This document shows positions 4,235 to 19,086 of a DNA stretch of 64,000 nucleotides, one piece after another (the first letter of the stretch is position 1; every line of letters starts with the position of its first letter). This DNA comes from Actinokineospora auranticolor. Lineage in GTDB: Bacteria > Actinomycetota > Actinomycetes > Mycobacteriales > Pseudonocardiaceae. Below the pieces are notes generated by a model that saw nothing but the letters and a program-made list of their open reading frames with translations, was not told the DNA's origin and did no database searches. A program made the translations under genes and the position numbers. The DNA is taken from positions 310,001 to 374,000 of the forward strand of contig NZ_PTIX01000002.1 of NCBI RefSeq assembly GCF_002934265.1, in the 5' to 3' direction.

Positions 4235-6580
4235 TCAGGGGTGTTGGGTGGCGCGGACCAGGTCGTCGCCGGGGAGTTTGATGCCGAAGTCGGCGCCGGG
4301 GTTGACGATGACGGTGGTCCCGGACACGGCCCGGGCGAGGGCTCGGCCTTCGGCCTGGATCACTCGCGGTGCGTTTTGCGGGACGTAGCGGGGGGAGGAG
4401 TAGACGGCGAGGAGGCGGGTGCCGGTGGCGTTGGTGGCGATGCGCGGGTTGCCTGTGCTGTCGGGTTCCAGGATGAACGTGGATTGCAGGAAAGCGTGTG
4501 GTAGGCGGGCGTGTGGTAGCCAGCCGGCGGCGGCGTAGCCGAGGACCAGTTCGAAGTAGGTCTGCGGTTCCGGGTATCCGCGGCGGCGGGGGCTCGGGCG
4601 GTAGTCCTCGTTGAGGTAGGTCTCGCCGGTGAACCGGCCGTCCTGGCCGACCTTGTAGCCGCCCAGCAGGACGGGTAGCGGCATGCCCTCGATCACCCGG
4701 GGGTCGACGTCCGGGTCGGCGCAGTACACCCAGCCGCCCGGGGTTCTGGCCGCTTCGGCGCGCATCGCGTCGGTGATCGGTGGCAGGCCGGGATGGCTGG
4801 GGTGAGCGGAGGGGGTCGCGTGGGCGGGGTGGGTGATCTCCACCATGTGGCCGGAGCGCAGGTACTCGTTGATTGCTTGTGGCAGAACGTAACCGCGGCC
4901 GCCCGCCGCCGAGGTCACCGCGACGACCTGCCAGGCGCCGCCGGCGAGGCGGTACCGGTGCAGGGGACGGGAGGCGAAGTCGGCGGGTAGGCCGCGTTGG
5001 TCGAACGGGGTGTCCGCGACGAACACGAGGTTGCCGTCCGGCTCGCCGTACCGGTCCACCTCCACGTCCTCGAGCACCACCGGCGTGACACCGGCGAACG
5101 ACTCGACCGGCGGGTCGTCGGACAGCACGGCCAGCGGCGACTGCCACGCCGGGATCTCCTCGCCCAGCTCGATCCCGAGTTCGGCGGCGTTCGCGGACAA
5201 CTGCCCCGCCAGGTACGCCGCAGCCTGCCGCACGTCGTCGAAGCGGACCGCGCCCGACCGGTCCGACGACCACTGCACGCGGTACCGGTCGCCGTCGCGG
5301 ACCAGGCACCAGGCGCCTTCCCGCTCGGCGAACACGCTGTAGTACCGGGGGCTGATCCGCTTGTCGATGATCACGTCCTCCAGCGGTACCATCGCCTGGC
5401 GCGCCTTGGCCTCCACTTCGGACTCATCCCACGGTCGGCCGACGGCCATCGCCGCCGCCCGGTCCAGCGCGACGGCCGGGACACCGTCCGGCAGCCGGTA
5501 CCGCGCCGCCCTGATCCACTCCACCAGCGGCAGCACCGGCGGCACCCCGTGCGCCCTCAGGTAGTACGCCACCGCGCTCGGCCAGACGAACCGGCCGTCG
5601 GTGTGGAAGCCCATCGGCACCACGTCCTCGGTGCCCAGCGCGTCCCGGGTCGTGCCGCGGGCGGACAGCACGAGCGGCGCGCCCTCCAGGTAGGCCAGCA
5701 CGGCTTCGCGTTCGAGTTCGCCGAGCACCGGGCGGTACCAGGTCGGTCGGCCTCCGTCGGCCACGCCGTCGAACAACCGGACCAGTTCCGGCGGGCCGGC
5801 GGGTGCGGGTTCGATCCGTTGCGCGGCAAGGGTCTGCTCCCCGCGCACGGCTGCCGCGAGCAGCCAGTCCGGGGTGGTGGCCGCGCTACGGGGAAGCATG
5901 CGCAGCTCGGCGGCGGCGACCTCGGCGTCCTCGTCGGTGGTCAGTTCCAGGGGTTCGACGAGGTAGGTGATCTTGGCCAGTGCGCCCTGCCGCACCTCGA
6001 ACTGGGCGCGCCACCACGTGCCCCGGGTGGGGTGGTAGTCCCGCATCCGCTGCCGGTGCAGCCACTGGCCGACAATCGCGGGCGGCGACCAGTACCACAT
6101 TTCACCGTTCTCGTTCTGGATGACGCCCCCGATCCGCATCCGGGTCCCCATGGCCTCGCAGTCGACGAGAAGCCGGTGCCATCCCTCCGGCATGGCACCG
6201 AGGAGCGCGCGCTCGAACCCGGGGACCACGTCGAGGGGGGCCGTGCCCGGCTTGGTACCCGCCGCGGGTTCGGTCAGCACCGACGCGAAACCGGCCACCG
6301 GGCGGCCGTCCGGGATGTCCGCACGGATCTGCCGGACGGCCGCCTCAGCCAGGAAGCCCACGTCCGGGTCGATCGCGAGAACGTCCATCTCGGACGGGCG
6401 GATGCTCGTGGTGAACACGGACTCGAACTCGCTCAACGGCAGCCGCTTGACCTCCCGCCCGTCGGGGAGGGTGACGACCTGCCCGTCCACCGGGGCGTCC
6501 GCCGCGACGTGCGCGGTCCAGTCGGGCCCCATCTTGACAAGAAGCGTCGCGTCGCCGATTACCCCGATGCGCATGGTCAC
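4235..6580 (-). CDS. Large multidomain type VII secretion-associated protein with SseB-like C-terminus
   Basis: The 781-residue soluble product starts at a GTG preceded by GGAGG six bases away; an ATG two codons later is a possible alternative. The middle part contains two related segments (about 310-350 and 590-625), each with a G-x-F/Y-x-W/L-P-x-A-hydrophobic-x-x-Y-L-R pattern. The segment from about 640 to 781 has P-G-G-W-V, N-x-D-Y-R-P-S-P and a final N-P-G-A-D-F-G-I-K-L-P-G block like SseB N-terminal domains. That region aligns by eye with the separate protein encoded at 40513-41283. It lies last in the run of genes that follows the EspC-glycosyltransferase fusion. Related actinobacterial proteins are often annotated as type VII secretion-associated; the biochemical role is unknown. 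Confidence 0.65.
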   Translation of the reverse strand: MTMRIGVIGDATLLVKMGPDWTAHVAADAPVDGQVVTLPDGREVKRLPLSEFESVFTTSIRPSEMDVLAIDPDVGFLAEAAVRQIRADIPDGRPVAGFASVLTEPAAGTKPGTAPLDVVPGFERALLGAMPEGWHRLLVDCEAMGTRMRIGGVIQNENGEMWYWSPPAIVGQWLHRQRMRDYHPTRGTWWRAQFEVRQGALAKITYLVEPLELTTDEDAEVAAAELRMLPRSAATTPDWLLAAAVRGEQTLAAQRIEPAPAGPPELVRLFDGVADGGRPTWYRPVLGELEREAVLAYLEGAPLVLSARGTTRDALGTEDVVPMGFHTDGRFVWPSAVAYYLRAHGVPPVLPLVEWIRAARYRLPDGVPAVALDRAAAMAVGRPWDESEVEAKARQAMVPLEDVIIDKRISPRYYSVFAEREGAWCLVRDGDRYRVQWSSDRSGAVRFDDVRQAAAYLAGQLSANAAELGIELGEEIPAWQSPLAVLSDDPPVESFAGVTPVVLEDVEVDRYGEPDGNLVFVADTPFDQRGLPADFASRPLHRYRLAGGAWQVVAVTSAAGGRGYVLPQAINEYLRSGHMVEITHPAHATPSAHPSHPGLPPITDAMRAEAARTPGGWVYCADPDVDPRVIEGMPLPVLLGGYKVGQDGRFTGETYLNEDYRPSPRRRGYPEPQTYFELVLGYAAAGWLPHARLPHAFLQSTFILEPDSTGNPRIATNATGTRLLAVYSSPRYVPQNAPRVIQAEGRALARAVSGTTVIVNPGADFGIKLPGDDLVRATQHP

Positions 6581-6657: not shown

Positions 6658-7158
6658 TCACAGGGAAGTCATGTTGATCAGTTTCTCGGAGAGCTCCGTC
6701 GCCAACGCGGCGAGGTCACGACCGGCCTCCGCCATACCGACGGCGGGCCCCGGAGCGAGTCTGTCCGCCACCTCCTGGAGGAGCTGGCCGATCACCAACG
6801 CCCGCAACTCGGACACATGCACATCCCGGAGCGGCTCACCCCGCAGGCGCTCCCCGCGAGCGCGATCACCCGCCAGATCCGCACGGAGCTCAGCTGCCAA
6901 CTCCACCAAACCGTACGGGGCCGACGACCCGTCGTCCCGGAAGTCGGTGAACGCCAGGCTGAACCGCGTCGGATCGGGTGAACCCGCCTGCGACTCCACC
7001 CGCGTAGCCGAACCCTGCTCGGCCAACAGCAACTGGTACAGGTCATCCAGCTCAGCCGTATACGGCACCGGGGGATCGTGCGGCGTTTGGTGGTGGACCA
7101 AGTCGGCCGCAGCCGCGCGCAGGGCTTCGTACCGCGCCGCCAAGTCGTCGCCGGTCAT
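6658..7158 (-). CDS. Small helical protein, paralog of the 7769-8269 product
   Basis: The 166-residue soluble, all-helical product begins M-T-G-D-D-L-A-A-R-Y-E-A-L-R and carries E-L-R-A-L-V-I-G-Q-L-L-Q-E-V-A near residues 110-130. The protein at 7769-8269 shares the start pattern (G-D-E-L-A-x-R-Y) and the E-V-x-A-x-V-V-G-x-L-L-R-E-L-A block, so the two are paralogs. Its start overlaps the stop of the glycosyltransferase-like gene by four bases, so translation is coupled. One plausible role is a partner, chaperone or immunity protein for that neighbour. No known domain was recognised. Confidence 0.65.
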   Translation of the reverse strand: MTGDDLAARYEALRAAAADLVHHQTPHDPPVPYTAELDDLYQLLLAEQGSATRVESQAGSPDPTRFSLAFTDFRDDGSSAPYGLVELAAELRADLAGDRARGERLRGEPLRDVHVSELRALVIGQLLQEVADRLAPGPAVGMAEAGRDLAALATELSEKLINMTSL

Positions 7159-7772
7159 CGCTTCTCCTCGCGCACGGTCATGATGGACTTGATCAGATCA
7201 CCAGCCGATTGCCCCGCGCTCTGCAACGTCCGCAGCGCGGCCACCACCGCACCGCGCAGTTCCGCCGCCCGCCGCCGGGCCGCCCGCGGATCGTCCACAA
7301 CTGCCGCGAGTTCGGCCACCCACCGGTCGATCGGCGCCACCGCTTCCCCCTCGGCGCGCCGGATTACCGAATGCTCGGCCACCCGCGGGTCGATTCGGCC
7401 GCTCTTGACCAGGAAGTTGCCCACGCCGCAGGTGTCCGGTACCAGCACCGGCACGTCCGCCATGATCGCGTCCAGTGCGGTCATGCCGACGTTCTCCGCG
7501 TGCGCGGGCACGATGACCAGGTCCGCGGCGCGGACCAGCTCGCGCTGCGCCTGCTTGTCCGCGGAGTAGGCGCGCACTTCCACCGCTCGCCCGGCGACCT
7601 GCGACAACAACCGCCGGGCCGCCCGCACCGTTTCCGGCGGTGCGCCGTTCACGACCATGCGCACCGGTCGCTCAGGCCCGATACCGCGCACCATCAACGC
7701 GGACTCGTACGCACCGTGCTGCGTGAGGTCGCTGCGCCCGGAATAGACCACCACCGGCCGCGCGCCACTCAT
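7155..7772 (-). CDS. Half-length GT4-like glycosyltransferase domain protein
   Basis: The 205-residue product corresponds only to the C-terminal (nucleotide-sugar-binding) Rossmann half of a GT-B glycosyltransferase. It has V-V-Y-S-G-R-S-D at the start, a central A-D-L-V-I-V-P strand, and A-E-N-V-G-M-T-A-L-D followed by V-P-V-L-V-P. In the GT4 family this site is normally E-x7-E; here the second acidic position is Asp. The acceptor-binding N-terminal half is absent. It resembles the C-terminal domain of the 8266-11388 product. It overlaps both neighbours by four bases. It may be an inactive copy, a regulatory partner, or an immunity-type mimic of the larger enzyme. Confidence 0.7.
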   Translation of the reverse strand: MSGARPVVVYSGRSDLTQHGAYESALMVRGIGPERPVRMVVNGAPPETVRAARRLLSQVAGRAVEVRAYSADKQAQRELVRAADLVIVPAHAENVGMTALDAIMADVPVLVPDTCGVGNFLVKSGRIDPRVAEHSVIRRAEGEAVAPIDRWVAELAAVVDDPRAARRRAAELRGAVVAALRTLQSAGQSAGDLIKSIMTVREEKR

Positions 7773-8269
7773 CGCTGCGCCCCAACGAACGTCGGCTCCA
7801 GCACCTCGTCGGCCAACTCCCCCACCACAACCGCCAACTCCCGACCACCGGGGTCACCCGTGGCAACCAGCCGCGCCGCCAACTCTCGCAGCAGCGTCCC
7901 CACCACCATGGCCTGCACCTCCGTCAACGTCGGGTCCCACACATTGGGCCACTCCCCGGGCGGCTCCTCAGTCGCGTCGTCAAGGGCCAGGCTGTCCCGA
8001 ATGCTCTGCGCTTCGCCGGCAAACGGGCGCGGCGCGCCATCGGGCGTGCCGCCCTGGTAATCCCGCGAGCACAGCAGGTGCAGGGTGGGATCGACAAGCT
8101 CCCTGGTGGTGGTATCTGCGGCCTCGGACTCCGCCAGCGCCGCCGCCAAACGATCCAACTTCCGCCGGTGTACCACAGATACCTCGGCAGCCGCAGTCAC
8201 TTCAAGCAGCGCAGCGGCAGCCCGCCGCAACCGCGCATAGCGGTCCGCGAGTTCGTCACCGGACATCAC
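7769..8269 (-). CDS. Small helical protein directly after the EspC-glycosyltransferase gene
   Basis: The 166-residue cytosolic protein starts at GTG 8269 with an ATG as its second codon, and overlaps the stop of the upstream glycosyltransferase gene as GTGA. It is paralogous to the 6658-7158 product (shared G-D-E-L-A-x-R-Y start and a conserved E-V-Q-A-M-V-V-G-T-L-L-R-E-L-A block). Each of the two paralogs follows immediately on a glycosyltransferase-domain gene. That alternation suggests each belongs functionally to the gene before it, as chaperone, regulator or immunity protein. No signal peptide or membrane span was seen. The role is inference only. Confidence 0.65.
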   Translation of the reverse strand: MMSGDELADRYARLRRAAAALLEVTAAAEVSVVHRRKLDRLAAALAESEAADTTTRELVDPTLHLLCSRDYQGGTPDGAPRPFAGEAQSIRDSLALDDATEEPPGEWPNVWDPTLTEVQAMVVGTLLRELAARLVATGDPGGRELAVVVGELADEVLEPTFVGAQR

Positions 8270-11200
8270 AGCCTCCCAAGAGCCTTGACCAACTTCTCCA
8301 CGGTGCCGGGCCAGGTGGCATTCTGGTCTTTGAATTCCTGTTGCAACGCCAGGGCACGGTTCTGCGCATCGTCGTAATTGTCCGCCACGTTCCTCAGCGC
8401 CTCCAACCAGCGGTCCTCCGGCACCCGGTCCTCGAAGCCCTGGTCGACGATGCTCGGTCCGGCGTTGGCCGCCGAGAACTCGTCGCCGAGCCAGCGGCCG
8501 AAGCCACTGCTGGACGGGACCACGACGGGCACACCCGCCCCGGCGGCCTCCTGGGCGGTGAGCCCGAAGCCCTCGGCGCGCGAGGTCATGACCATCACAT
8601 CGGCATCGTCCAAGTCGGTGTAGAGGTCAGAGCGGTCCGTCGTGAACGGGCGGACCTCGACGTCGGTTTTGGCGATGTTGGCGAGCTGCCTCTGCTGGTA
8701 CACAACTTGCGCTGGGGGCACACCGCGTACGGTCAGCTGCACGGGCCGCCCCTCGAACTGCAACCTGGAGACCACTCTCGCCGCCTCCTTGGCACCCTTC
8801 TGGCCGACGTCGGCGCGGCCGAACAAGAGCACCTTCATCGGGCGTCCCTCGATAGAGCGTGGTCTGCGGTCCACGAACTCCATCCCGGGGATCAGCTCGT
8901 GCACGTCCTTCGTCGCCACCGGTCCTCCCGCCGCTCTGGCCTGCTCGACCATCTCCCGCACGTTCTCCGCGATGGCCGGTCCGACGCCGACCGCGAGGTC
9001 CGCGTTCGCCACCAGGGCGCGCTCGATGGCGTGGTTCTTGATGCCCGCGGCCAGGTCGCTCGGATCGTCGTCCGCCTTCACCCGACCGAGGGCTTCCGGC
9101 ACCATGTGCACGAAGTGGATCAGCTTCGCGTCCGGGTACCTGGCGTCGCGGGTCGCCGCGGCGTCCGGGCCGGAGAAGCGCGTGTGCCCGATGACGAAAT
9201 CGACGTGGTCGGGCATGTCGTGGGGATCGTCCGCGGTCCCGAGCAGTTTGCGCGAATCGGGTGCGTCGGGCAGGTCGCGTGGACCGAGGATCCGCAGGTT
9301 GGGCCGCTGGGCGTCCGCGTAGCGGGAGGCGTCCTCGCCGATGCGCACGATCACGTTGTGCCCGGCGTCGGCCAGCGCCTCGGCGAGCGCCCGGTTGAAG
9401 ACCACTACGCCGCCCTTCTCCGGGCTGTACTCCGTGCACACCAACAGGAAGGTGTAGGTGGCGTCGTCGACGTCCTGCTCGTCCGCGGTGTCCCGGCGCT
9501 CGTCGGGCGTGAGCCCCTGGTCGGTCGGCCGGTCCGGCTCGGCCCCGTCCTGGTCCCTCCCGTGATCCGTGGTCGGGTTCTGGTCCGAGGGCCGGTCGTG
9601 GGCTGTGTCCTGGTCCTGGCTCCGGCCCGGGTCGTCGCTGGTGCGTTCGCCGGTGGTGTTCGGGTCGGTGCGGTCGCGCTGGTCTCGCGTCTGCTCCGGG
9701 CGCCCGGGGTGGTCCGGACGACGTGGTTCGGGCCCCGGGTCCGGCGCTGCCTGCTCGCGCCGCGCCGGCGTGTGGTCCCGGTGGGGACCGTCGCCATCCG
9801 GAGGCCGCGCGGTCGGTCCGGTCGACGGTTGCCCGTGCGGACCGGTGCCCGGTCGTGGCGAACCGGGGGTGGGCGGCGGCCCCTGGTGGGACGGTCCAGC
9901 GCCCGGCTGCGGGCGATGACCCGGCGGGGGCTGACCATGGCCCTGCGGCGGCGCGTCGCCCGCTCGGGGTGGGGCGCCGTGCGGCGAGCCCGGGGAGCGT
10001 TGCGACGGAGTGTCAGTCCCTTGGGGCGAAGCGCCGTGCGACTGAGGCGAGCCGCTGGGCGGCGAACCCGGGGAGCGTTGGCTCTGCGACGGAGCGTCAC
10101 CAGTCCGGGACGCAGCGCCATGTGGCTGGGGCAAGGCCGGTGACCGTTGGCTCTGTGGCCCGCCGTGGCCTGGCTGGGGCGGTGTGCCTGCCGCCTGCCT
10201 CGGACGGTCGCCCGTATTCGACTCGTGCCCACCCCGCTGCGGCTGGCCCGGCTCCGGTGAACCTTGTGCGCGGTGTCCCTGGTGGGGCCGGGCGCGGTCC
10301 TGCTGCGGCGAACCTTGCCCCGGACCCTGTCGATCCGACCGCGGTGACGCGTTCGCCGGGCGCTGCTCCCCGTGCAGACCCGACTGCGGTGCGCCGTGCG
10401 CTTGCTGGGGTGGGGCCTGACCCGCTCTCGGCGAGCCCTGTCCCTGGGACGGGGTGCCGCGGTCTTGCCCGGGCGAGCCAGGTCCCTGCGCAGGCTGCCG
10501 ACCAGGTGCCTGCTGAGGTGGTGCGTGGCCGGGCTGCCCCTGCCCGGACGTGGCAGGCGACCCACCCGGGCGCCCGGTGGGCGGCCCCGACGGCGTGCTC
10601 GGAGTCGAGCCCGGCCCGCCAGACGACGACGCCGGGCGGGACCCTGCCGGGCCCGGGCCGGACGACGTGGCGGGCGTCGGTGACGTGGGAGCAGGGGGCG
10701 AACTGGACGGGCGCGCAGGCGCACCTGAACTCGCGGCTGGAGCGCCCCGGTCACCGGGCGTGGTCGGGGACCCCGACGGACGCGCGGGCGTCCCCGAACG
10801 CGGAGCGTTCGTGCCGTCGGACACGCTTGGTGAGCGTGATGGGCGGGCCCCTGGGGTGTCGGAACGTGGGGGCGGGGTGTTTGACGTGCCTGCGGTGGTC
10901 GGGGCGCCGCGCGGTGTGGACGCGGGCGTCCCGGAGGTGCGGGGAGTGGCGGTGCTCGCGCTCCCGGAGGTGCGGGGCGCGGACTTGCCCAGGCCGTCGC
11001 CGGACTGGCGGAGGGTGGACGCGTTCGACTGGTCGGCGCCCCGGGCCGCCTGGGCGGTGTCCTTGACCTTCTGCCCGCTGGTCTCCGCCGAGGCGGCCGC
11101 GCGGGCCACGCCATCACGGGCGGTGCGGATGGCTTCGTCGGCCTTGACCATTGCGACCTGGCCGAACACGCCCGCGCTCTGCGACGACGCGCCGATGTTC

Positions 11201-11388
11201 AGGCGGCCGCCGACGCCGTCGCGGATCTGGTCCGCCCGGTTGGCGAAGCGGCTGCCCGCGGAGTCCAGGGCGTCGGGGTCCACGCCCGTGCCCGACGCGC
11301 CGCCGGGGCTACCGGGGCCGGCCGGGGTCGGCGTGCTCGAACCGCTCGAACCGCCGTGGTGGGGCGAGTCGCCGTGCCTGCGTTTCAT
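8266..11388 (-). CDS. Putative type VII-secreted protein: EspC/WXG100-like N-terminus, long Pro/Gln/Ser linker, C-terminal GT4 glycosyltransferase
   Basis: The 1040-residue product has three parts. Residues about 36-125 are helical with features of EspC (DUF2580)/WXG100-type secretion targets, including V-D-P-D-A-L and A-G-V-F-G-Q motifs and no classical signal peptide. Residues about 130-640 are extremely rich in Pro, Gly, Ser, Gln and Arg, with short repeats of P-S-Q-S-Q-R-S-P-G type. Residues about 645-1040 form a GT-B fold glycosyltransferase: S-P-E-K-G-G-V at the start, and E-G-F-G-L-T-A-Q-E near 939-947, which is the intact GT4 E-x7-E motif. Nothing resembles the linker in the neighbours. 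It heads a run of genes overlapping by four bases. I infer an exported glycosyltransferase, possibly a toxin; a cell-wall-acting enzyme is an alternative. Confidence 0.75.
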   Translation of the reverse strand: MKRRHGDSPHHGGSSGSSTPTPAGPGSPGGASGTGVDPDALDSAGSRFANRADQIRDGVGGRLNIGASSQSAGVFGQVAMVKADEAIRTARDGVARAAASAETSGQKVKDTAQAARGADQSNASTLRQSGDGLGKSAPRTSGSASTATPRTSGTPASTPRGAPTTAGTSNTPPPRSDTPGARPSRSPSVSDGTNAPRSGTPARPSGSPTTPGDRGAPAASSGAPARPSSSPPAPTSPTPATSSGPGPAGSRPASSSGGPGSTPSTPSGPPTGRPGGSPATSGQGQPGHAPPQQAPGRQPAQGPGSPGQDRGTPSQGQGSPRAGQAPPQQAHGAPQSGLHGEQRPANASPRSDRQGPGQGSPQQDRARPHQGHRAQGSPEPGQPQRGGHESNTGDRPRQAAGTPPQPGHGGPQSQRSPALPQPHGAASRTGDAPSQSQRSPGSPPSGSPQSHGASPQGTDTPSQRSPGSPHGAPPRAGDAPPQGHGQPPPGHRPQPGAGPSHQGPPPTPGSPRPGTGPHGQPSTGPTARPPDGDGPHRDHTPARREQAAPDPGPEPRRPDHPGRPEQTRDQRDRTDPNTTGERTSDDPGRSQDQDTAHDRPSDQNPTTDHGRDQDGAEPDRPTDQGLTPDERRDTADEQDVDDATYTFLLVCTEYSPEKGGVVVFNRALAEALADAGHNVIVRIGEDASRYADAQRPNLRILGPRDLPDAPDSRKLLGTADDPHDMPDHVDFVIGHTRFSGPDAAATRDARYPDAKLIHFVHMVPEALGRVKADDDPSDLAAGIKNHAIERALVANADLAVGVGPAIAENVREMVEQARAAGGPVATKDVHELIPGMEFVDRRPRSIEGRPMKVLLFGRADVGQKGAKEAARVVSRLQFEGRPVQLTVRGVPPAQVVYQQRQLANIAKTDVEVRPFTTDRSDLYTDLDDADVMVMTSRAEGFGLTAQEAAGAGVPVVVPSSSGFGRWLGDEFSAANAGPSIVDQGFEDRVPEDRWLEALRNVADNYDDAQNRALALQQEFKDQNATWPGTVEKLVKALGRL

Positions 11389-11704: not shown

Positions 11705-12250
11705 TCAGCCTGGGTCCGGCGTGCAGACGGTCAGGAAGGATTTGCCGTTTTCCCGTTGTACGTCTGCTGCGTTCATCCAGCCGCGTTGGCCGAAGAGGTA
11801 GGTGTTGGGTGGGTGTTGGGGTGATTCGACGAGGACTTGGGGGATGGTGAGTCGGGCGCCGTTGGCGGGTGGGCCGCTGACGGCGAAGTTGAGGGAGTCG
11901 GCTTTGGTCCAGTCGTAGGTTGTGGGGAGGGGGGTTTGGACTTCTAGGGGGGTCGTGGTGGGTTCTTTGGTGCCCAAGAGGTCCATGTGTTCCAAGAGGA
12001 CTCCTGGGGGCGGGGCGGTCCAGGTTTGTTCTGTGCTTTTCGCGGTGCCGGTGTCGAAGATCAGGGTTATGCCGGTGACGCCTTGGCAGGGGGTGCCCGT
12101 CCACAGCTTCAGGACGCCGTCGTCCACGCGGAAGCCCGCGGCGGGGGGTAGGGATGGTGCGAACTGGGCTTTGGTTTCGCACGCCGCGAGGGTTGCCGCG
12201 ACCAGGATGGTGGCGCAGGTGACGCGCGGCCAGTTAGCGGTATCCGCCAT
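11705..12250 (-). CDS. Putative lipoprotein of a type VII effector operon
   Basis: I place the start at ATG 12250 because it puts a lipoprotein signal at the N-terminus: W-P-R-V-T-C, a hydrophobic I-L-V-A-A-T-stretch and the lipobox L-A-A-C with the acylated Cys near residue 24. The frame is open further upstream, but that part overlaps the upstream gene and is unlike a protein. The 181-residue mature part is beta-rich and Pro/Thr-rich with no recognised domain. It overlaps the end of the HExxH-containing gene by 17 bases. It could protect the envelope from the upstream enzyme, that is, an immunity lipoprotein, but this is inference from order. Confidence 0.65.
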   Translation of the reverse strand: MADTANWPRVTCATILVAATLAACETKAQFAPSLPPAAGFRVDDGVLKLWTGTPCQGVTGITLIFDTGTAKSTEQTWTAPPPGVLLEHMDLLGTKEPTTTPLEVQTPLPTTYDWTKADSLNFAVSGPPANGARLTIPQVLVESPQHPPNTYLFGQRGWMNAADVQRENGKSFLTVCTPDPG

Positions 12251-13625
12251 CGGAGAGTCCTGCGTCTTCCTCTGTCTCGTTGCCACCGGTGATCTGCTCC
12301 CACACGTAGGAGGCCAGGAAGCCGCTGTAGCCCTCGCGGGCCCATTGCTGGGAGTGGCGTTCCTCGTGGTGGAGCAGGCGGTCCATGTCCAGGCTGCCCT
12401 GGTACGGGCCGTCATCTCCCTCGTACCACGCGTGGCCGGACTTCGCCACGTCGCGGAGTTGTTGGGCGGGGTCCGACGGGTCGTCGATGTTCAGCATGAA
12501 CGTGTCGCCCCAGGTCGTCCCGCCGCGTTGGCTGAACTGGTCCTGGATCAGGTTGCCGCCCAGGCCCATCATCATGCCGTTCGGGGTGGTGACCAACCGG
12601 CCGCCGTTGCCGTGCACGAAGCCGACGTCCTCGTTGTAGCTCCAGGCGTTTTCCTTTTGGCGTTCGGTGATTCGGCGCAGTTCGTCGGAGCCGTACGGGG
12701 TTGGGGTGAAGTCGCCGCCCGGGCCGTAGTCGGTGCCCGCGTTCATGATGTAGGTCATCCGGACCGCCTTGGCGGCGTCGTCGCCGCTGATGTCAGTCGG
12801 CATCAGGAAGTACGACTTGAAGGTGCCGTCGCCGTCCGAGTCTTCGCGGATCTCCTCCATACCGTCGAGGACCTTGAAGTCCTCCGGCGTGATGTGGTGG
12901 TCGACGATCATCTGCTTGATCGTGTCGACCGACACGCCCCGGCGCACGGCGTTCTCCAACCACTGCCGGTAGTAGCCGGACGCGGGTGGGCCGGTCAGCA
13001 GGCCCGCGTCGCGCAGCGACTGCTCCATCTCGGCGACCTTGGCATCGATCTCGCCGCCCTGCCTGGCACCGTCCAAAGTCGTCGCGCCGTGGTCGCTGAT
13101 CTTGCGCTCCTGGGCGAGCTGCACGACCTTGGCGAGGGCGGCGTCGATGTTGTTGGCGGTGGTCAGGATTCCCTTGGTCTCCTGCGCCAACTGGTTCCTG
13201 ATGGTCTCGCGGTGCCGCCGGGCCTCGGCGCCTTCCTCGGCCTCGAACCGCGACCTCGGCGGCGGGTCCGGGGGCTTGTTGTCCACGATCGCACCGTCGG
13301 GGGCGATGCCGAACTGGTAGGTGCCTGCGAGGGAATCGTTGTTGGCGACCCGCGTCTTCAGCGCGGAGACGTCGTCCGACGCGTTCTGCAGCGCGGTTTC
13401 GACGGCGGACAGCTCCGCGATCAGGATCTCGGCGTTGTTGCGCGTGGTGCCGAGCGAGTTGCGCGCGCTCTCGCCCGCCGGACCGTGCCAGTCGGGCAGT
13501 CGCCTGGCGTCGTCGAGCTCGTCCTGGAGCCCGATGAGCTTGTCCCGCCGCCCGCGCAGGTTGGTGGCCGTCGTGTCGAGCGCTTCCGCGTCCCACTTGC
13601 GGACGTCGTCGTAGCCGATGGTCAT
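12234..13625 (-). CDS. Putative type VII effector with HExxH zincin-like C-terminal motif
   Basis: The start is ATG 13625, overlapping the stop of the upstream EspC-like gene as ATGA. The 463-residue product has a helical N-terminus (about 1-190) with W-D and W-H-G-P-A-G-E-S-A motifs like long WXG100-type (LXG-like) secretion domains. A short Pro linker near 115 and an uncharacterised central region follow. At residues 420-424 is H-E-E-R-H inside L-L-H-H-E-E-R-H-S-Q-Q-W, a textbook HExxH zinc-binding pattern. There is no Sec signal. I infer an exported metallopeptidase-like or toxin domain. The pattern H-x-x-R-H-S-x-Q-W also occurs in polymorphic toxin C-termini, so enzymatic activity is not certain. 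Confidence 0.7.
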   Translation of the reverse strand: MTIGYDDVRKWDAEALDTTATNLRGRRDKLIGLQDELDDARRLPDWHGPAGESARNSLGTTRNNAEILIAELSAVETALQNASDDVSALKTRVANNDSLAGTYQFGIAPDGAIVDNKPPDPPPRSRFEAEEGAEARRHRETIRNQLAQETKGILTTANNIDAALAKVVQLAQERKISDHGATTLDGARQGGEIDAKVAEMEQSLRDAGLLTGPPASGYYRQWLENAVRRGVSVDTIKQMIVDHHITPEDFKVLDGMEEIREDSDGDGTFKSYFLMPTDISGDDAAKAVRMTYIMNAGTDYGPGGDFTPTPYGSDELRRITERQKENAWSYNEDVGFVHGNGGRLVTTPNGMMMGLGGNLIQDQFSQRGGTTWGDTFMLNIDDPSDPAQQLRDVAKSGHAWYEGDDGPYQGSLDMDRLLHHEERHSQQWAREGYSGFLASYVWEQITGGNETEEDAGLSDGGYR

Positions 13626-13909
13626 CCCCGGAAGGCCCTCTCCGCGGTGTTCTCGTTCTCGGCGTACGCCTTCGCCGACGAGTTGACCGAGTCGCCCCAC
13701 TGGTCGATCTCGCCCGCCCACCCCTGGGCGCGCTCGTTGAACGTCGACGCCAGGGTGGGCGCGTTCTTCGCCGCCTCGCCACCCGGCAGCGCCGCCGCGA
13801 CCGCACCCAGGCCGGTACCCGGCTCGACCGCTCTGGCCTGGTCCGCGGCGGACCAGGCGGCCTTGGCCGCGCTCCGCAGCTGGCCTATCTCGACCTCGTA
13901 CCCGCTCAC
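13622..13909 (-). CDS. EspC/WXG100-like small secretion protein
   Basis: The 95-residue product is a two-helix protein starting M-S-G-Y-E-V-E-I-G-Q-L-R, with W residues in the first helix and Q-G-W-A-G-E-I-D-Q-W-G-D-S-V in the second. Length, helix-turn-helix shape, absence of a signal peptide and the Ala-rich composition fit ESX-secreted partner proteins (WXG100 or EspC/DUF2580 type). It overlaps the effector gene by four bases, which fits a co-secreted partner. The classical W-x-G loop is not exact, so the subfamily is uncertain. Confidence 0.7.
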   Translation of the reverse strand: MSGYEVEIGQLRSAAKAAWSAADQARAVEPGTGLGAVAAALPGGEAAKNAPTLASTFNERAQGWAGEIDQWGDSVNSSAKAYAENENTAERAFRG

Positions 13910-14106
13910 AGTCCGTGACCACCACCCTCGCGTCGGCCGTCAGGCGGACTGTACTTGAGCGCGGCAGCGGCCACACCCGATTCGCGCAAGAGCTGCCCGA
14001 GCGACCTGGCGGTGTCGTATGCGCAGGTCAGCGGCTCCGCGAGTCCGGTGTGGCCGGTGGGTGCGTCCCGGCTACCCCGCACGGGATAGCCGGGAGTGGA
14101 CAGCCG

Positions 14107-14816: not shown

Positions 14817-16220
14817 TCAGGCGCGGCGGCGGATCAGGGGGACGAAGTTGAGCAGGAAGCCCGCCACGGCGACGGCGGTCACCAGGTTCAGGCCGGGGCG
14901 GAAGAAACTCAGGTCGGTTGGGGTGAACGGGCTGGCAATCAGTGCCGTGACGACCGCCAGGACCAGGGCGGAGCCGACCTGACCCGAGGTCTGGACCAGA
15001 CCCGCGGCCAAGCCCTGTTCGGCGTCGTCGATGCCGTCGGTGGCCTGGGCCATGATCGCGCTGAAGCCGAAGCCGAAGCCGCCACCCAGCAGGAGCATGG
15101 TCGGGAGGATGGTGAGCGGGTAGTTGGGGGTGGTCCCGGCGGTGGCGAGGAACCAGAGGTAGCCCAGGCTGAGGGAGACCATCGAGGCCAGGATCAGGCG
15201 CGCGGTGCCGTAGCGGTCGATCAGCTTCCCGACCAGGGGCGAGCCGATGACGACGACGATGCCCGCGGGGAGCAGGGCCAGCGCCATGGCCAGTGGTGTC
15301 CAGCCGAGGACGTTCTGCAGGTAGATGGTCATGACGAACTGGAAGCTGATGTAGGAGCCCATCAGCGCGACGACGCTCAGGTTGGCGCGGACTACCGTGC
15401 CGATGCGCAGGATCCCCAGGCGGATCAGCGGGTGCGGGATGCGGTTTTCGATGACGAAGAACGCGGTCAGCAGGGCGGCGACGACCACGACCGACGCCAG
15501 GGTCAGCGGGTGCAGCCAGCCGCGTTCGGGTGCGGTGACCACCGTGTAGACGGCGAGGAGCATGCCGCCGGTCAGGGTGATGGCACCCCAGATGTCGTGG
15601 CCGCCTTCGGCCCGGGCGGTGTCCCGGGGGATGAGGCGGATGCCGACGATCAGGGCGGCGAGGGCCACCGGGACGGGGGTCAGGAAGGTCCAGCGCCACC
15701 CCGCGCTGGTGAGGAGGCCGCCGAGGATGAGGCCGGAGGAGTACCCGCTGGCCCCGAACACGGTGAAGATCGAGAGGGCGCGGTTGCGGGCCGGGCCCTC
15801 GGGGAACGTCGTGGTGAGGATGGACATCGCGGTCGGCGCGGTGAACGCGGCGGCGAGGCCCTTGATGAAGCGGGTCGCGACGAGCAGGACGCCGTTGTCG
15901 ACGAGGCCGCCGACCAGCGAGGCAGCGGCGAAGGCACCGAGGGCGATGAGGAAGACGCGGCGGCGGCCGAGCAGGTCCGCGGTGCGGCCGCCGAGGAGCA
16001 GCAGACCGCCGTAGCCGAGCACGTACCCGTTGACCAGCCATTGCAGCGACGACTCGGCCATGCCCAGCTCCGCGCCGATCGACGGCAGCGCGACGCCGAC
16101 CATGGAGACGTCCATCCCGTCGAGGAACAGCACCAGGCACAGCACGGCCAGGACACCCCAGAGCCTGCCGGACCAGACGGGGGCCCGCGTGGGTGCGGGC
16201 GCTAGATCGGTGAGAGTCAC
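14817..16220 (-). CDS. MFS drug efflux transporter (DHA2/EmrB-QacA type)
   Basis: The 467-residue membrane protein has about 14 predicted segments. It shows G-R-T-A-D-L-L-G-R-R-R between segments 2 and 3, an R-x(3)-G-L-A motif in segment 4, and the antiporter motif C-like G-A-S-G-Y-S-S-G-L-I-L-G-G in segment 5. This places it in the proton-coupled DHA2 drug exporters. The start is a GTG with little Shine-Dalgarno complementarity, so it may be poorly or leaderlessly translated. It is divergent from a MarR-family gene across 100 bases that contain a large inverted repeat, the standard layout for a MarR-controlled pump. Confidence 0.88.
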   Translation of the reverse strand: MTLTDLAPAPTRAPVWSGRLWGVLAVLCLVLFLDGMDVSMVGVALPSIGAELGMAESSLQWLVNGYVLGYGGLLLLGGRTADLLGRRRVFLIALGAFAAASLVGGLVDNGVLLVATRFIKGLAAAFTAPTAMSILTTTFPEGPARNRALSIFTVFGASGYSSGLILGGLLTSAGWRWTFLTPVPVALAALIVGIRLIPRDTARAEGGHDIWGAITLTGGMLLAVYTVVTAPERGWLHPLTLASVVVVAALLTAFFVIENRIPHPLIRLGILRIGTVVRANLSVVALMGSYISFQFVMTIYLQNVLGWTPLAMALALLPAGIVVVIGSPLVGKLIDRYGTARLILASMVSLSLGYLWFLATAGTTPNYPLTILPTMLLLGGGFGFGFSAIMAQATDGIDDAEQGLAAGLVQTSGQVGSALVLAVVTALIASPFTPTDLSFFRPGLNLVTAVAVAGFLLNFVPLIRRRA

Positions 16221-16232
16221 GTGCTCAAACTA

Positions 16233-16306
16233 CATGCGACCACATCTAGTGCGGCAACATAATATTCCAGCAAATAAGATGCGTTGGGGTTAGATGTCCT
16301 CGCATG
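16233..16306. promoter_or_regulatory. Inverted repeat in the MarR/MFS divergent promoter
   Basis: CATGCGACCACATCTA (16233-16248) is mirrored by TAGATGTCCTCGCATG (16291-16306), with only the two central positions of each arm not pairing. The region between is AT-rich, unlike its surroundings, so it probably holds both promoters. The arms are likely binding half-sites or two operators for the MarR protein. The right arm sits 15 bases before the MarR start codon, consistent with autorepression. Confidence 0.6.
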
Positions 16307-16320
16307 ATAGGATGCGCGCC

Positions 16321-16707
16321 ATGTCCACGGAGGCAGAGCTCATCGACGAGTGGCGATCGCTGGCGCAGCGCTACCACAAGCTCGCCTGCGCACTGGACCG
16401 CGCACTGGACGAGACCCACGGCGTGAGCATGAACGAGTTCGAAACCCTGGACCGGCTGCTGACGCAGTCGACCCAGCCGTGCGACACGCGCATGCAGGAC
16501 CTGGCCGGTCAGATGTACCTGAGCCAGAGCGCCCTCTCGCGCACGGTGGCCCGGCTCGAGAAGGCCGGGTTTGTTGAGCGGACGCTGTGCGAGGCAGACC
16601 GTCGTGGTGTCTTCGTGCGGGTGACGGACGCGGGCCGCGAGCTGTACCGCGCCGCGAGCCAGACCCGTCTCGCCATCCTCGGGTCAGGCGTCCCCGAGAA
16701 CGCCTGA
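16321..16707 (+). CDS. MarR family transcriptional regulator
   Basis: The 128-residue product (start ATG 16321) has the winged-helix core of MarR proteins: M-Q-D-L-A-G-Q-M-Y-L-S-Q-S-A-L-S-R-T-V-A-R-L as the recognition region and C-E-A-D-R-R-G-V-F-V as the wing with the conserved D-x-R. It is slightly short for MarR (usually 140-150) at the C-terminus, which forms the dimer interface. The divergent position to an efflux gene suggests it represses that pump and itself, relieved by a pump substrate. Confidence 0.88.
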   Translation: MSTEAELIDEWRSLAQRYHKLACALDRALDETHGVSMNEFETLDRLLTQSTQPCDTRMQDLAGQMYLSQSALSRTVARLEKAGFVERTLCEADRRGVFVRVTDAGRELYRAASQTRLAILGSGVPENA

Positions 16708-17003
16708 CCGGAGCCTGGCGCCACACCCCGACCAGGCACGCCACTCGGGCGGCCCCAATCCCGGCGCCAGGTTCGCGATGGCCCCGTCCACCCGGGGCAG
16801 GCCCCGCCTTGAGCCTATCTGCCGAGGCCAGATCGGTAAAAGCTGGTGAGTGCGGACGGTGGATGGATTGCCGACATGTGGGCAACCTGATCACATTCCG
16901 CCACAGGTGGGCACGCTCGTCTGGCTTGACGTCGGGGATTGGTTGTCTGTGTTCGGCTGCGAGGTTTCTACCGGGCGGCGGCGGGCGGTGCGGTTGACGG
17001 GGA

Positions 17004-17400
17004 TCAGCGGCGGGCGGGGCGATAGGTGGCCAGGAGGAGGGCCAGGCCCGCCAGGAAGAGGACGACTCCGGCCCACAACGTGTGCTCCGCGTCTACGCCC
17101 GTGGACGCTAGGGATTGTGTTGCGCCGGGCGGAAGCGGGCCTCTGGGACGAGGTTCTGGGTTGGGGTGACGGCAGGGGGTGCGGCCGGGTTGGCAGCGGG
17201 CGGTGTCGTCGGCGGGGTCGCGCAGTGGGCGGCGAGGACGAGGGTTATGGGGTCCAGGTCGGCGCCTGCTTGGTAGAAGCCCGCGAACGCTTCTGAACTG
17301 GCGAGGGTCGCTGGGGTGTTTTGCCAGGTGAGGACGCCGTTGGTTGGGGTCGCGGACGGGCGGGTGATGGTGGCCAAGGCTAACCTAAATACACGGTTCG
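17004..17400 (-). pseudogene. Decayed HtaA-type heme-binding cell-wall protein (C-terminal remnant with frameshift)
   Basis: Reading the minus strand from about 17395, one frame gives about 45 residues typical of the end of an HtaA domain (N-G-V-L-T-W, then A-F-A-G-F-Y-Q-A-G-A-D-L-D-P-I-T). A Pro/Thr/Ala linker follows and the frame stops at 17108. A different frame continues with P-G-A-T-Q-S-L-A-S-T-G, a hydrophobic helix and a final R-P-A-R-R before a stop at 17004. That is a sortase-type LAxTG anchor, so a frameshift separates the two parts. Most of the HtaA domain and the signal peptide are missing. It lies just downstream of heme oxygenase, where a heme-capture protein would be expected. 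Confidence 0.65.
17371..17389 (-). promoter_or_regulatory. IdeR/DtxR-like iron box at the 5' end of the HtaA remnant
   Basis: GTGGCCAAGGCTAACCTAA matches the DtxR/IdeR consensus TTAGGTTAGGCTAACCTAA at 14 of 19 positions, with one half nearly perfect. It sits where the coding remnant begins, so the deletion may have joined a promoter to the 3' part of the gene. Confidence 0.5.
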
Positions 17401-17461
17401 ACGGTTGGCAAGGGCGACGCCCGACACACTGTCCACAGTGGTATCTCAGGCACGCCGAAGC

Positions 17462-17486
17462 AGGGGTCCCGCGTTCGGAACCCCCT
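17462..17486 (-). terminator. Hairpin terminator after heme oxygenase
   Basis: On the minus strand AGGGG pairs with CCCCT and TTCC with GGGA around a six-base loop, with one bulged G. It starts 16 bases after the heme oxygenase stop. Confidence 0.5.
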
Positions 17487-17501
17487 ACCCGGCGGGAAAA
17501 G

Positions 17502-18146
17502 TCAGCAGTAGACCCCGGACAGTTCGTCGAACACGGCGCGGTTGAGCCGGAAGGCGGTGTTGGCCTCCTCGACCAGGGCCGCGCGTTCGGCGTCGCTCCA
17601 GGGGGCGCCGTCGAGCAGGGACCGGTAGTGGTCGCGGAACGGCTTGGGCCTGGCGATCCGGTCGAAGACGTAGAAGCGCACGCCGTCCTCGCTGAGGCCG
17701 AAGACCTCCTGCATGCGGCGCCGGATGACCTGGCCGCCGGAGAGGTCGCCGAGGTAGCGCGTGTAGTGGTGCGCGACGAACGCGGCGCGGTCGGTGAAGC
17801 AGGCTTCCTCCAGGCGGTCCACATAGGACTGCGTGGCGGGCAGCGCGCTCAGGCCGTCGCGCCACCGCGGGCCGAGCAGGAACGCCAGGTCCCGCTCCAG
17901 CGCGCCCCGGCGCAGCAGCCCGTCGATGACGAACCCGCCGATGACGGGATCACCCCGCCACGACTCGCCCGCGTCCTCGAGGACGCCGTAGAAGAGGTAG
18001 CTCTGCGCGAGCAGCCCGGCGTAGGCCTCCCGCCCGAGGCCGCCGCCCAGCAGCGCCTCGACGAACACCGAGCGCTCGGCCCGCTCGTGCTCGTCCCGGG
18101 TCCCCATCCGCAGTCGAGCCGCGAACCCTTCGTCCACCGCAGTCAT
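17502..18146 (-). CDS. hmuO: Heme oxygenase
   Basis: The 214-residue product (start ATG 18146) is full length for bacterial heme oxygenase. It cleaves heme to biliverdin, CO and iron. The proximal heme ligand is His20 in the T-R-D-E-H-E-R-A-E context, and the signature L-G-D-L-S-G-G-Q is at about 132-139, providing the distal-helix glycines. It is cytosolic and all-helical. An IdeR/DtxR-like box lies 16 bases upstream of the start, and a decayed HtaA gene follows, so the gene belongs to iron acquisition from heme under iron control. The symbol follows the corynebacterial homolog. Confidence 0.9.
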   Translation of the reverse strand: MTAVDEGFAARLRMGTRDEHERAERSVFVEALLGGGLGREAYAGLLAQSYLFYGVLEDAGESWRGDPVIGGFVIDGLLRRGALERDLAFLLGPRWRDGLSALPATQSYVDRLEEACFTDRAAFVAHHYTRYLGDLSGGQVIRRRMQEVFGLSEDGVRFYVFDRIARPKPFRDHYRSLLDGAPWSDAERAALVEEANTAFRLNRAVFDELSGVYC

Positions 18147-18161
18147 CGCCCACCGTTCCAC

Positions 18162-18180
18162 TGAGGGTTGCCTACCTAAA
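18162..18180 (-). promoter_or_regulatory. IdeR/DtxR-like iron box upstream of heme oxygenase
   Basis: On the minus strand TTTAGGTAGGCAACCCTCA matches TTAGGTTAGGCTAACCTAA at 13 of 19 positions, with the best fit in the centre. It lies directly upstream of the heme oxygenase start. Iron-bound IdeR would repress there. Confidence 0.45.
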
Positions 18181-18186
18181 CCTAGG

Positions 18187-19086
18187 TCACCCATCGGAGT
18201 GAAACCAGCGCGAATTTCGCCACAGGGTCAGGCCCTCGTCGAGGATGGGTGCGGGGATGACGAGGGGTGGGATCAGGCGGATGACGTTGGCGTAGGTGCC
18301 GCAGGTCAGGACGATGACCCCCGCCCGGTGGCAGTCGGCGGCGACCCGGCGGGCGACCTCGGGAGCCGGGGCACCACCGGGGCCGACGAACTCCAGACCG
18401 ACCATCGCGCCCCGACCGCGGACCTCCGCGAGGGCCGGGTGGCCGAGCAGCGGGGCGAGGCGGGACCGGATCGCGGCGCCGATCCGGTTCGCGGCGTCGG
18501 CCAGGTGGTCCGCGCGCATGGTGTCGACGGTGGCCAGGGCGGCGGCGCAGGCCAGGGGGTTGCCGCCGTACGTGCCGCCGAGGCCGCCGGGGTGGACGGC
18601 GTCCATGAGCTCGGCGCGACCGGTGACCCCCGCCAGCGGGAGCCCGCCCGCCGCGAGGGTCAGGTTCGTGCGGCCGTGGTAGGCGTGGTCGAACACCGCG
18701 ACCGCGGAACGTCCGGTGGCGTGCCGGGCGATCTTGACGGCGTTCTCCACGGCCCCGGCGCCGGAGTTGAACAGCGCCGACCGCTTCTCGTGCGCGCCCG
18801 GCGTCAGCTCGTTGAGCCGCTCGCACACCGCGACGTAGCTCTCGTACGGGTTCACCATGAAGCAGGCGTGCGTGAACTCGGCGGCCTGCCGCTGGACGGC
18901 GGCGACGACGGCCGGCGCGGCGTTGCCGACCGAGGTCACGCCGATGCCGGAGCCGAGGTCGATCAGCCGGGTACCGTCCTGGTCGCGCAGGGCGCCGGGT
19001 TCGGTGTGGGTGGCGAAGTGGCCGGGCAGCAGGCTGGTGACACCGGCGGCGACCGCGGCGGCGCGGCGGTCCACAAGGGACGTCAT
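18187..19086 (-). pseudogene. gabT: GABA aminotransferase with internal in-frame deletion removing the PLP lysine
   Basis: The 299-residue frame is clearly a class III aminotransferase of the GABA-T family, which is normally about 430-450 residues. The N-terminal part (I-D-L-G-S-G-I-G-V, N-S-G-A-G-A-V-E-N-A-V-K, F-D-H-A-Y-H-G-R-T-N-L-T) and the C-terminal part (G-G-L-P-L-A-G-V-T-G-R, G-G-T-Y-G-G-N-P) are well conserved. They are joined directly, so about 120-130 residues are missing, including the E-P-I-Q-G-E-G-G and D-E-V-Q-T-G blocks and the Schiff-base lysine of the T-A-K-G-I motif. It should be inactive. It is the last gene of the amine degradation operon, 11 bases after the dehydrogenase. 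Confidence 0.8.

Follow-up and report, generated by a model that had tools for sequence, protein, structure and literature searches.

The window analyzed in this work is a 64,000-nucleotide stretch of the Actinokineospora auranticolor genome (contig NZ_PTIX01000002.1, positions 310,001 to 374,000 of the forward strand). At 8266-11388, a single open reading frame (ORF) on the minus strand encodes a 1040-amino-acid (aa) fusion of a predicted type VII secretion domain, referred to here as the header, to a GT4-type glycosyltransferase domain. Three small genes, termed A, H, and B, follow it on the same strand. The features of this locus are as follows:

8266..11388, minus strand: EspC-GT4 fusion, predicted type VII polymorphic toxin, 1040 aa from an ATG start
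11287..11388, minus strand: Ser/Gly/His-rich leader, residues 1-34, with an in-frame ATG in 28/28 aligned sequences
11005..11286, minus strand: putative EspC-family (ESX substrate) domain, residues 35-128, with the invariant AGVFGQ motif region
9469..11004, minus strand: low-complexity Pro/Gly/Ser/Thr/Gln linker, residues 129-640, defined by composition
8290..9447, minus strand: GT4-conflict glycosyltransferase domain (PF20706), residues 648-1033, with R858, K864, E939, and E947
7769..8269, minus strand: gene A, predicted immunity protein, 166 aa (165 from the second start, ATG), overlapping the toxin stop
7155..7772, minus strand: gene H, donor-side C-terminal half of a GT4-conflict domain, 205 aa
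6658..7158, minus strand: gene B, paralogue of A (35% identical), 166 aa

An earlier note on this DNA had described the ORF as an EspC-like domain joined through a linker of about 500 residues to a GT4 enzyme, with a Pro/Gly/Ser/Gln-rich low-complexity center and an N terminus lacking a Sec signal. This layout was confirmed: the linker measures 512 aa, with P/G/S/T/Q making up 66% of residues 129-640 and V/I/L/M/F/Y/W/C making up 1%. Over the entire 1040-aa protein, the Kyte-Doolittle mean of a 19-residue segment peaks at 1.13, and therefore neither a Sec signal nor a membrane span is indicated, as judged by hydropathy alone and not by a signal-peptide predictor. The note's assignment of the C terminus to a GT-B glycosyltransferase with an intact E-x7-E motif was likewise borne out. 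Residues 648-1033 cover the whole PF20706 profile (positions 1-385 of 385) with an E value of 1.5e-112 and 376.9 bits (cutoff, 26), and E939 and E947 are in place, as are R858 and K864. We take R/K plus E-x7-E to be the catalytic motif of retaining GT4 enzymes; across 23 full GT4 rows, the Arg is kept in 22, the Lys in 21, and both Glu residues in all 23. The conflict clade is the best family match of the domain, at 377 bits versus 44 for general glycosyltransferase models. NCBIfam matches to the toxin comprised only subthreshold glycosyltransferase models, no PF04488-type match was listed at an E value of ≤1, and Pfam detected no ADP-ribosyltransferase (ART) in the 1040-aa protein.

The distribution of the header was surveyed by searching 297 genomes of the bacterial family with the window domain, which was found in 38 genomes (E ≤ 1e-3), with strong matches at 29 places in 25 genomes (E ≤ 1.9e-18). 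The 28 strong places besides the window were fetched for comparison. In all 28 aligned sequences, window included, the domain is preceded by a leader of ∼34 residues with its own in-frame ATG. Weak matches include free-standing proteins of 96-110 aa of the EspC/WXG100 type; among four weak-hit proteins scanned, three exceeded the EspC cutoff and one the WXG100 cutoff. One homologue, L039, bridges the two sets, sharing this type of leader and matching both the window domain (E 4.6e-6) and PF10824 (E 2.4e-9). In a profile-profile comparison with hhalign, 28 headers were set against 29 EspC-type sequences from 16 genomes (the short L154 was left out), and the two profiles aligned over 94/94 columns with a probability of 83.7, an E value of 8e-6, and a score of 33.8. 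The reversed profile gave a probability of 0.4 and the best of 30 column-shuffled profiles scored 14.9, by which an artifact of chance or composition was rejected as the source of the match. ISG65-75 matches, obtained for 14/28 header members, were taken as chance matches to a coiled coil. We read the window header as a divergent relative of the EspC family, not as a Pfam member, and as a putative ESX substrate domain; the earlier proposal of a type VII target at the N terminus gains support from this controlled profile homology and from L039.

Most other header proteins carry different modules. ORFs with the header reach 2632 aa. Comparison of their last 300 residues gave 11 groups without links to one another, including a frame that is cut (L051) and a fragment (L068) as two of the groups. 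For 17 of the 28 proteins, C-terminal stretches were scanned with Pfam, which recovered Scabin-like ART (14), Gln_amidase papain toxin (5), FolD (3), APH (2), AbiEii (1), and CdiA_C (1) modules, as well as RelA_SpoT below the cutoff (2). The ART matches of L047 are all subthreshold, the scan of L065 was limited to 550 residues, and that of the C-terminal stretch of L068 gave no match. GT4 is borne by the window, L042, and L043. The gene directly after the toxin varies with the warhead, being, for example, a member of a 152-195-aa family in L047, L051, and L053 and a pair of similar genes in L044. A search for the same fusion across actinobacteria had been proposed as a check; within the family, the header was found with GT4 in these loci and with ART, papain-fold, FolD, and other modules elsewhere. 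Among these, the FolD-like (tetrahydrofolate dehydrogenase/cyclohydrolase) modules that end L060, L065, and L066 are an unusual warhead candidate. The genome of the window itself holds a second header toxin, L045 (2588 aa, ART and AbiEii modules, contig C15), and the broken-looking header fragment L068 (contig C6).

Conversely, the same warhead occurs under another type VII header. In genome G008, from another genus of the family, locus L083 encodes an undoubted type VII polymorphic toxin, a 2616-aa protein with a WXG100_2 domain (PF25547, E 5.5e-39), a papain toxin domain, and a C-terminal GT4-conflict domain that is 71.5% identical to that of the window across 389 residues. A, H, and B follow it in the same order, with identities to their window counterparts of 60.6, 68.2, and 60.6%. 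N-terminal to GT4, blastp between the two toxins gave only chance matches (E 3.3 and 9.2), and the sole upstream likeness, seen by eye, is a short acidic stretch before GT4. GT4 and its downstream cassette are, by this sequence comparison, swapped as a module between headers. Upstream of the L083 toxin lie a YbaB gene and a gene of 107 aa that has no Pfam match; downstream of the toxin and cassette, a 724-aa gene (16167-18338, plus strand) combines an Imm35 domain with an ADP-ribosylglycohydrolase domain.

The cassette is compact. In the window, the A/H and H/B pairs overlap by 4 nucleotides each; the overlap between A and the toxin stop is 4 nucleotides when counted from the GTG start of A and 1 when counted from the ATG one codon on. 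A and B share 35-42% identity in three species; their Nudix_N and MMTV_SAg matches fell below the cutoff and were rejected. The structure model of A is of low confidence (predicted local distance difference test [pLDDT], 62.3; predicted template modeling score [pTM], 0.37), and Foldseek with this model returned 80 matches, the best at an E value of 1.3 and none at 0.001. The match of gene H to PF20706 is confined to the C-terminal half of the profile (positions 197-377), and in the window, L042, and L083 the equivalent of K864 is His and that of E947 is Asp; in a fourth species (L133), the part of the gene examined also has His at the K864 equivalent. In a tree of 29 C-terminal lobes, the four H sequences cluster together (100/100) on a stem that is long (1.03), and their closest neighbors are the toxin GT4s and L106/L107 (91/97); the origin of H is therefore an old GT4 copy of this kind. 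The ratios of nonsynonymous to synonymous substitution rates (dN/dS) for GT4, A, H, and B were 0.32, 0.15, 0.22, and 0.26 between the window and L042 and 0.36, 0.34, 0.33, and 0.37 between the window and L083, and lie at 0.15-0.38 over all three pairwise comparisons. All four are under purifying selection.

H and B have the look of a second pair in which the enzyme has shed one lobe and its catalytic residues yet kept its function. Our tentative proposal, possible but short of probable, is that H is a toxin-derived part of the immunity system, namely, a catalytically dead copy of the donor lobe that would form a three-protein antidote with A and B, in which it may, for example, occupy the lobe interface of the toxin or present a decoy to the A/B fold. 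Alternatively, H and B might be debris, an orphan toxin fragment with its immunity gene that serves only as recombination stock, as at tspA/tsaI and rhs loci. Fragments of second toxin copies beside immunity genes are known for tspA of Staphylococcus aureus and for an Rhs toxin (PMC9484751), and H is indeed half an enzyme with two catalytic replacements. However, unlike those fragments, H has stayed intact as a gene: its frame is open in four species from two genera and is under purifying selection (dN/dS 0.22-0.35). The tree of H reflects a split of the same age as the one separating L083 from the genus of the window, and in the window its frame overlaps both neighbors. We regard debris as an unlikely account of these two genes.

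The A/B family, searched with a hidden Markov model, follows GT4 rather than the header. GT4 loci were picked through GT4 or the fusion, so L134, which had been fetched because of A/B, was left out; on this basis, A/B genes adjoin GT4 in 12/23 GT4-conflict loci (13/24 with L134) and occur in 0/26 loci that have this header without GT4. Among the positive loci, several (L087-L089 and L137) are closely related. All A/B-positive loci stand on one side of a 100/100 tree split, alongside L115, which lacks A/B, with long rows leaving some placements unsure. Among 394 genomes of the class, for which the GT4 and A/B draws were taken as one set because their genome identifiers agree, GT4 was found in 14 (E ≤ 1e-25), A/B in 10, and both in 7 (Fisher p 1.4e-9). 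Nucleoside-hydrolase-like genes (by eye, DTDxGxDPDDA) and HAD-like genes lie near A/B in L134, L136, L137, and L087-L089, and similar genes lie near L051, L053, L063, and L068.

In the wider neighborhood, one further gene accompanies the header:

4235..6580, minus strand: conserved downstream partner, 781 aa, with a TNT domain (residues 505-582) and a C terminus like NF033532

The C terminus of this partner approaches NF033532 (type VII secretion system-associated protein) with an E value of 1.5e-23 and 83.7 bits (cutoff, 85). Genes around 29 header loci were called with a rough gene caller, and a relative of the partner lies downstream on the same strand in 27. At L043 the contig ends first, and an 80% identical relative is found on another contig (L133); at L069 this caller yielded no relative. 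TNT exceeded the cutoff in 7 of 11 proteins of this kind scanned and fell below it in 1; the 554-aa copy of A. globicatena lacks the TNT part. The candidate roles of the partner, with its NAD glycohydrolase-type TNT domain, are second effector, adaptor, or immunity protein. Upstream, a 277-aa gene with weak WXG100 similarity (E 0.0037; NCBIfam E 0.002) abuts 16/29 header toxins, and a YbaB-type gene precedes 15/29; in the A. auranticolor genome, such a WXG100-type gene stands beside L045. That genome also encodes ESX parts: EccB occurs at two loci, one of which adjoins a gene for an EccC-like triple-FtsK ATPase, and there are eight EspC-type matches. Elsewhere in the window, a 580-aa gene (12234-13976, minus strand) has a WXG-like stretch (Pfam WXG100 E 0.2) and, by eye, an HEExH-like motif near its C terminus, and is followed by a 236-aa gene without a Pfam match (11705-12415, minus strand); the two are perhaps a second type VII effector and its partner.

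From these comparisons, the 1040-aa protein is probably a type VII polymorphic toxin that would glycosylate a molecule inside a recipient cell, with A, and perhaps B and H, providing immunity. The EspC-type N-terminal domain would be the export tag for a type VII (ESX) system, the 512-residue disordered linker a spacer, and the GT4-conflict domain the warhead, a retaining GT-B transferase that would use the recipient's nucleotide sugar to glycosylate a molecule there. A would act as the cognate immunity protein by binding and blocking GT4 in the producer and its kin, and B and the catalytically substituted half-enzyme H would derive from a second GT4-A copy, kept most likely for the same protection. 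The sequence data show the ORF with its domains and catalytic motif, the exchange of header and warhead in both directions, the joint movement of A-H-B with GT4, and purifying selection on the four genes; export, entry into another cell, glycosylation, its target, and immunity are the parts of this proposal that we infer. If GT4 is exported to the recipient cytosol, where nucleotide sugars are, with A as immunity, a single account covers the header and its linker, the catalytic motif, the module swaps, and the cassette. A constant header with variable modules, the warhead under another header, a downstream gene that follows the warhead, and ESX machinery are what sequence comparison offers in favor of a type VII polymorphic toxin. 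A type VII target, as envisaged in the earlier note, is additionally supported by the NF033532-like C terminus of the partner and by the ESX components of the genome, and its suggestion of a delivered glycosylating toxin by the header's other toxin modules and by the same GT4 with its three genes in a WXG100_2 toxin.

Several observations weigh against this reading. Taken singly, the window N terminus has no significant Pfam match (WXG100 E 0.073; no EspC at E ≤ 10), and PF10824 is matched by only 4/28 header members, with a best E value of 0.012. The structure prediction proposed earlier for the N terminus yielded helices at 38-62 and 75-130 but is too poor to judge the fold, an antiparallel two-helix hairpin in the EspC family (mean pLDDT 57.2, pTM 0.19); Foldseek with this model gave nothing at E ≤ 10, and a PDB profile search of the N terminus gave only 8 chance matches (best E 0.2). 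Neither the 277-aa WXG100-like gene nor the YbaB-type gene precedes the toxins of the window, L042, and L043. The Fisher p value overstates independence because the genomes are related, and 3/10 A/B genomes lack GT4 at E ≤ 1e-25: one of these, G919, has a weak GT4 adjoining A/B, and G842 and G871 have none near A/B within the 14-15 kb read. Finally, A/B-type genes adjoin free-standing, headerless GT4s (L087-L089, L108, L114, L134, and L137), and A may therefore be a general GT4 partner rather than a strict immunity protein. The same loci suggest that the GT4-A/B pair existed first and was later drafted into type VII toxins.

Such headerless pairs also favor a second explanation, in which the fusion is not exported but acts inside the producer against phages or in abortive infection, its EspC-like helices serve assembly alone, and A and B regulate it; PF20706 domains act as effectors of intracellular conflict systems (PMC8195603, section 15). 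Against this, the header is common to ART, papain-fold, FolD, and other toxin modules, the same GT4 ends the WXG100_2 toxin of L083, no PADLOC model matches any of the five genes, and no NTPase or sensor gene stands among the cassette genes, so that we consider an intracellular effector rather improbable. A third explanation makes the protein a sugar transferase of the envelope or cell surface that ESX exports to act on the producer's own wall. An envelope-located enzyme had been named as the main alternative, but this explanation gained no support and is highly improbable: GT4 enzymes commonly make envelope glycans and mycothiol, and the best, far subthreshold NCBIfam matches are such enzymes, but the protein lacks a membrane span by hydropathy, nucleotide sugars are, as is generally known, cytosolic, the bit scores favor the conflict clade over general models, and module swapping and a downstream cassette are toxin features.

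The toxin reading has precedents in part. The idea of GT4 domains as warheads of toxins that actinobacteria secrete has already been published: GT4-conflict (PF20706) domains were predicted in giant secreted actinobacterial toxins for interbacterial use (Burroughs and Aravind, eLife 2021, PMC8195603). Those large proteins share with the window toxin the PF20706 family and a predicted interbacterial use after secretion, and the domain is also combined with ARTs there; section 15 of that paper names helix-turn-helix, ART, metallopeptidase, SecA-like, and MFS partners but no EspC/WXG100 header and no neighboring immunity-type genes. Similarly, a warhead of another glycosyltransferase type, Tox-Glycosyltransferase PF04488, was predicted for type VII (WXG) export in actinobacteria and for PVC export (Zhang et al. 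2012, PMC3482391); it has a GT-A-type nucleotide-diphosphosugar fold with YxDxD, whereas the window enzyme is a GT-B GT4 with E-x7-E and has another header and cassette. EsaD/EsaG and TspA/TsaI of S. aureus resemble the window in that paralogous immunity(-type) genes follow type VII toxins; they belong to the Firmicute T7SSb and involve nuclease and membrane toxins, unlike the window (PMC9484751). EspC proteins (PF10824) align with the window header over the full domain length but are free-standing and of ∼100 residues, whereas the window domain sits between a 34-residue leader and the linker and enzyme. The clostridial large glycosylating toxins have a GT-A fold with DXD, so that the GT-B window protein is not a member and shares with them a functional likeness at most. 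The literature searched, which did not extend to subscription papers, contained no described type VII GT4 toxin, EspC header on GT4, A-H-B cassette, or half-enzyme. The earlier remark that no described type VII system of this architecture was known stands, within that literature, for the carrier, but the use of GT4 as a warhead is an idea already published (PMC8195603).

If the proposal is true, actinobacterial ESX systems deliver GT-B glycosyltransferases, a class that we did not find demonstrated as an interbacterial type VII toxin. The half-enzyme H would open to direct testing a rare form of immunity, one that reuses the fold of the toxin; if H is indeed an immunity component, it would be, to our knowledge, the first toxin-derived pseudoenzyme immunity module for a type VII glycosyltransferase toxin. 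The GT4-conflict effectors, so far only predicted, would gain a compact, testable pair in GT4 and A, with a target and donor sugar that a laboratory strain could reveal, and an EspC-headed toxin family with many warheads would be added for Actinokineospora and its relatives.

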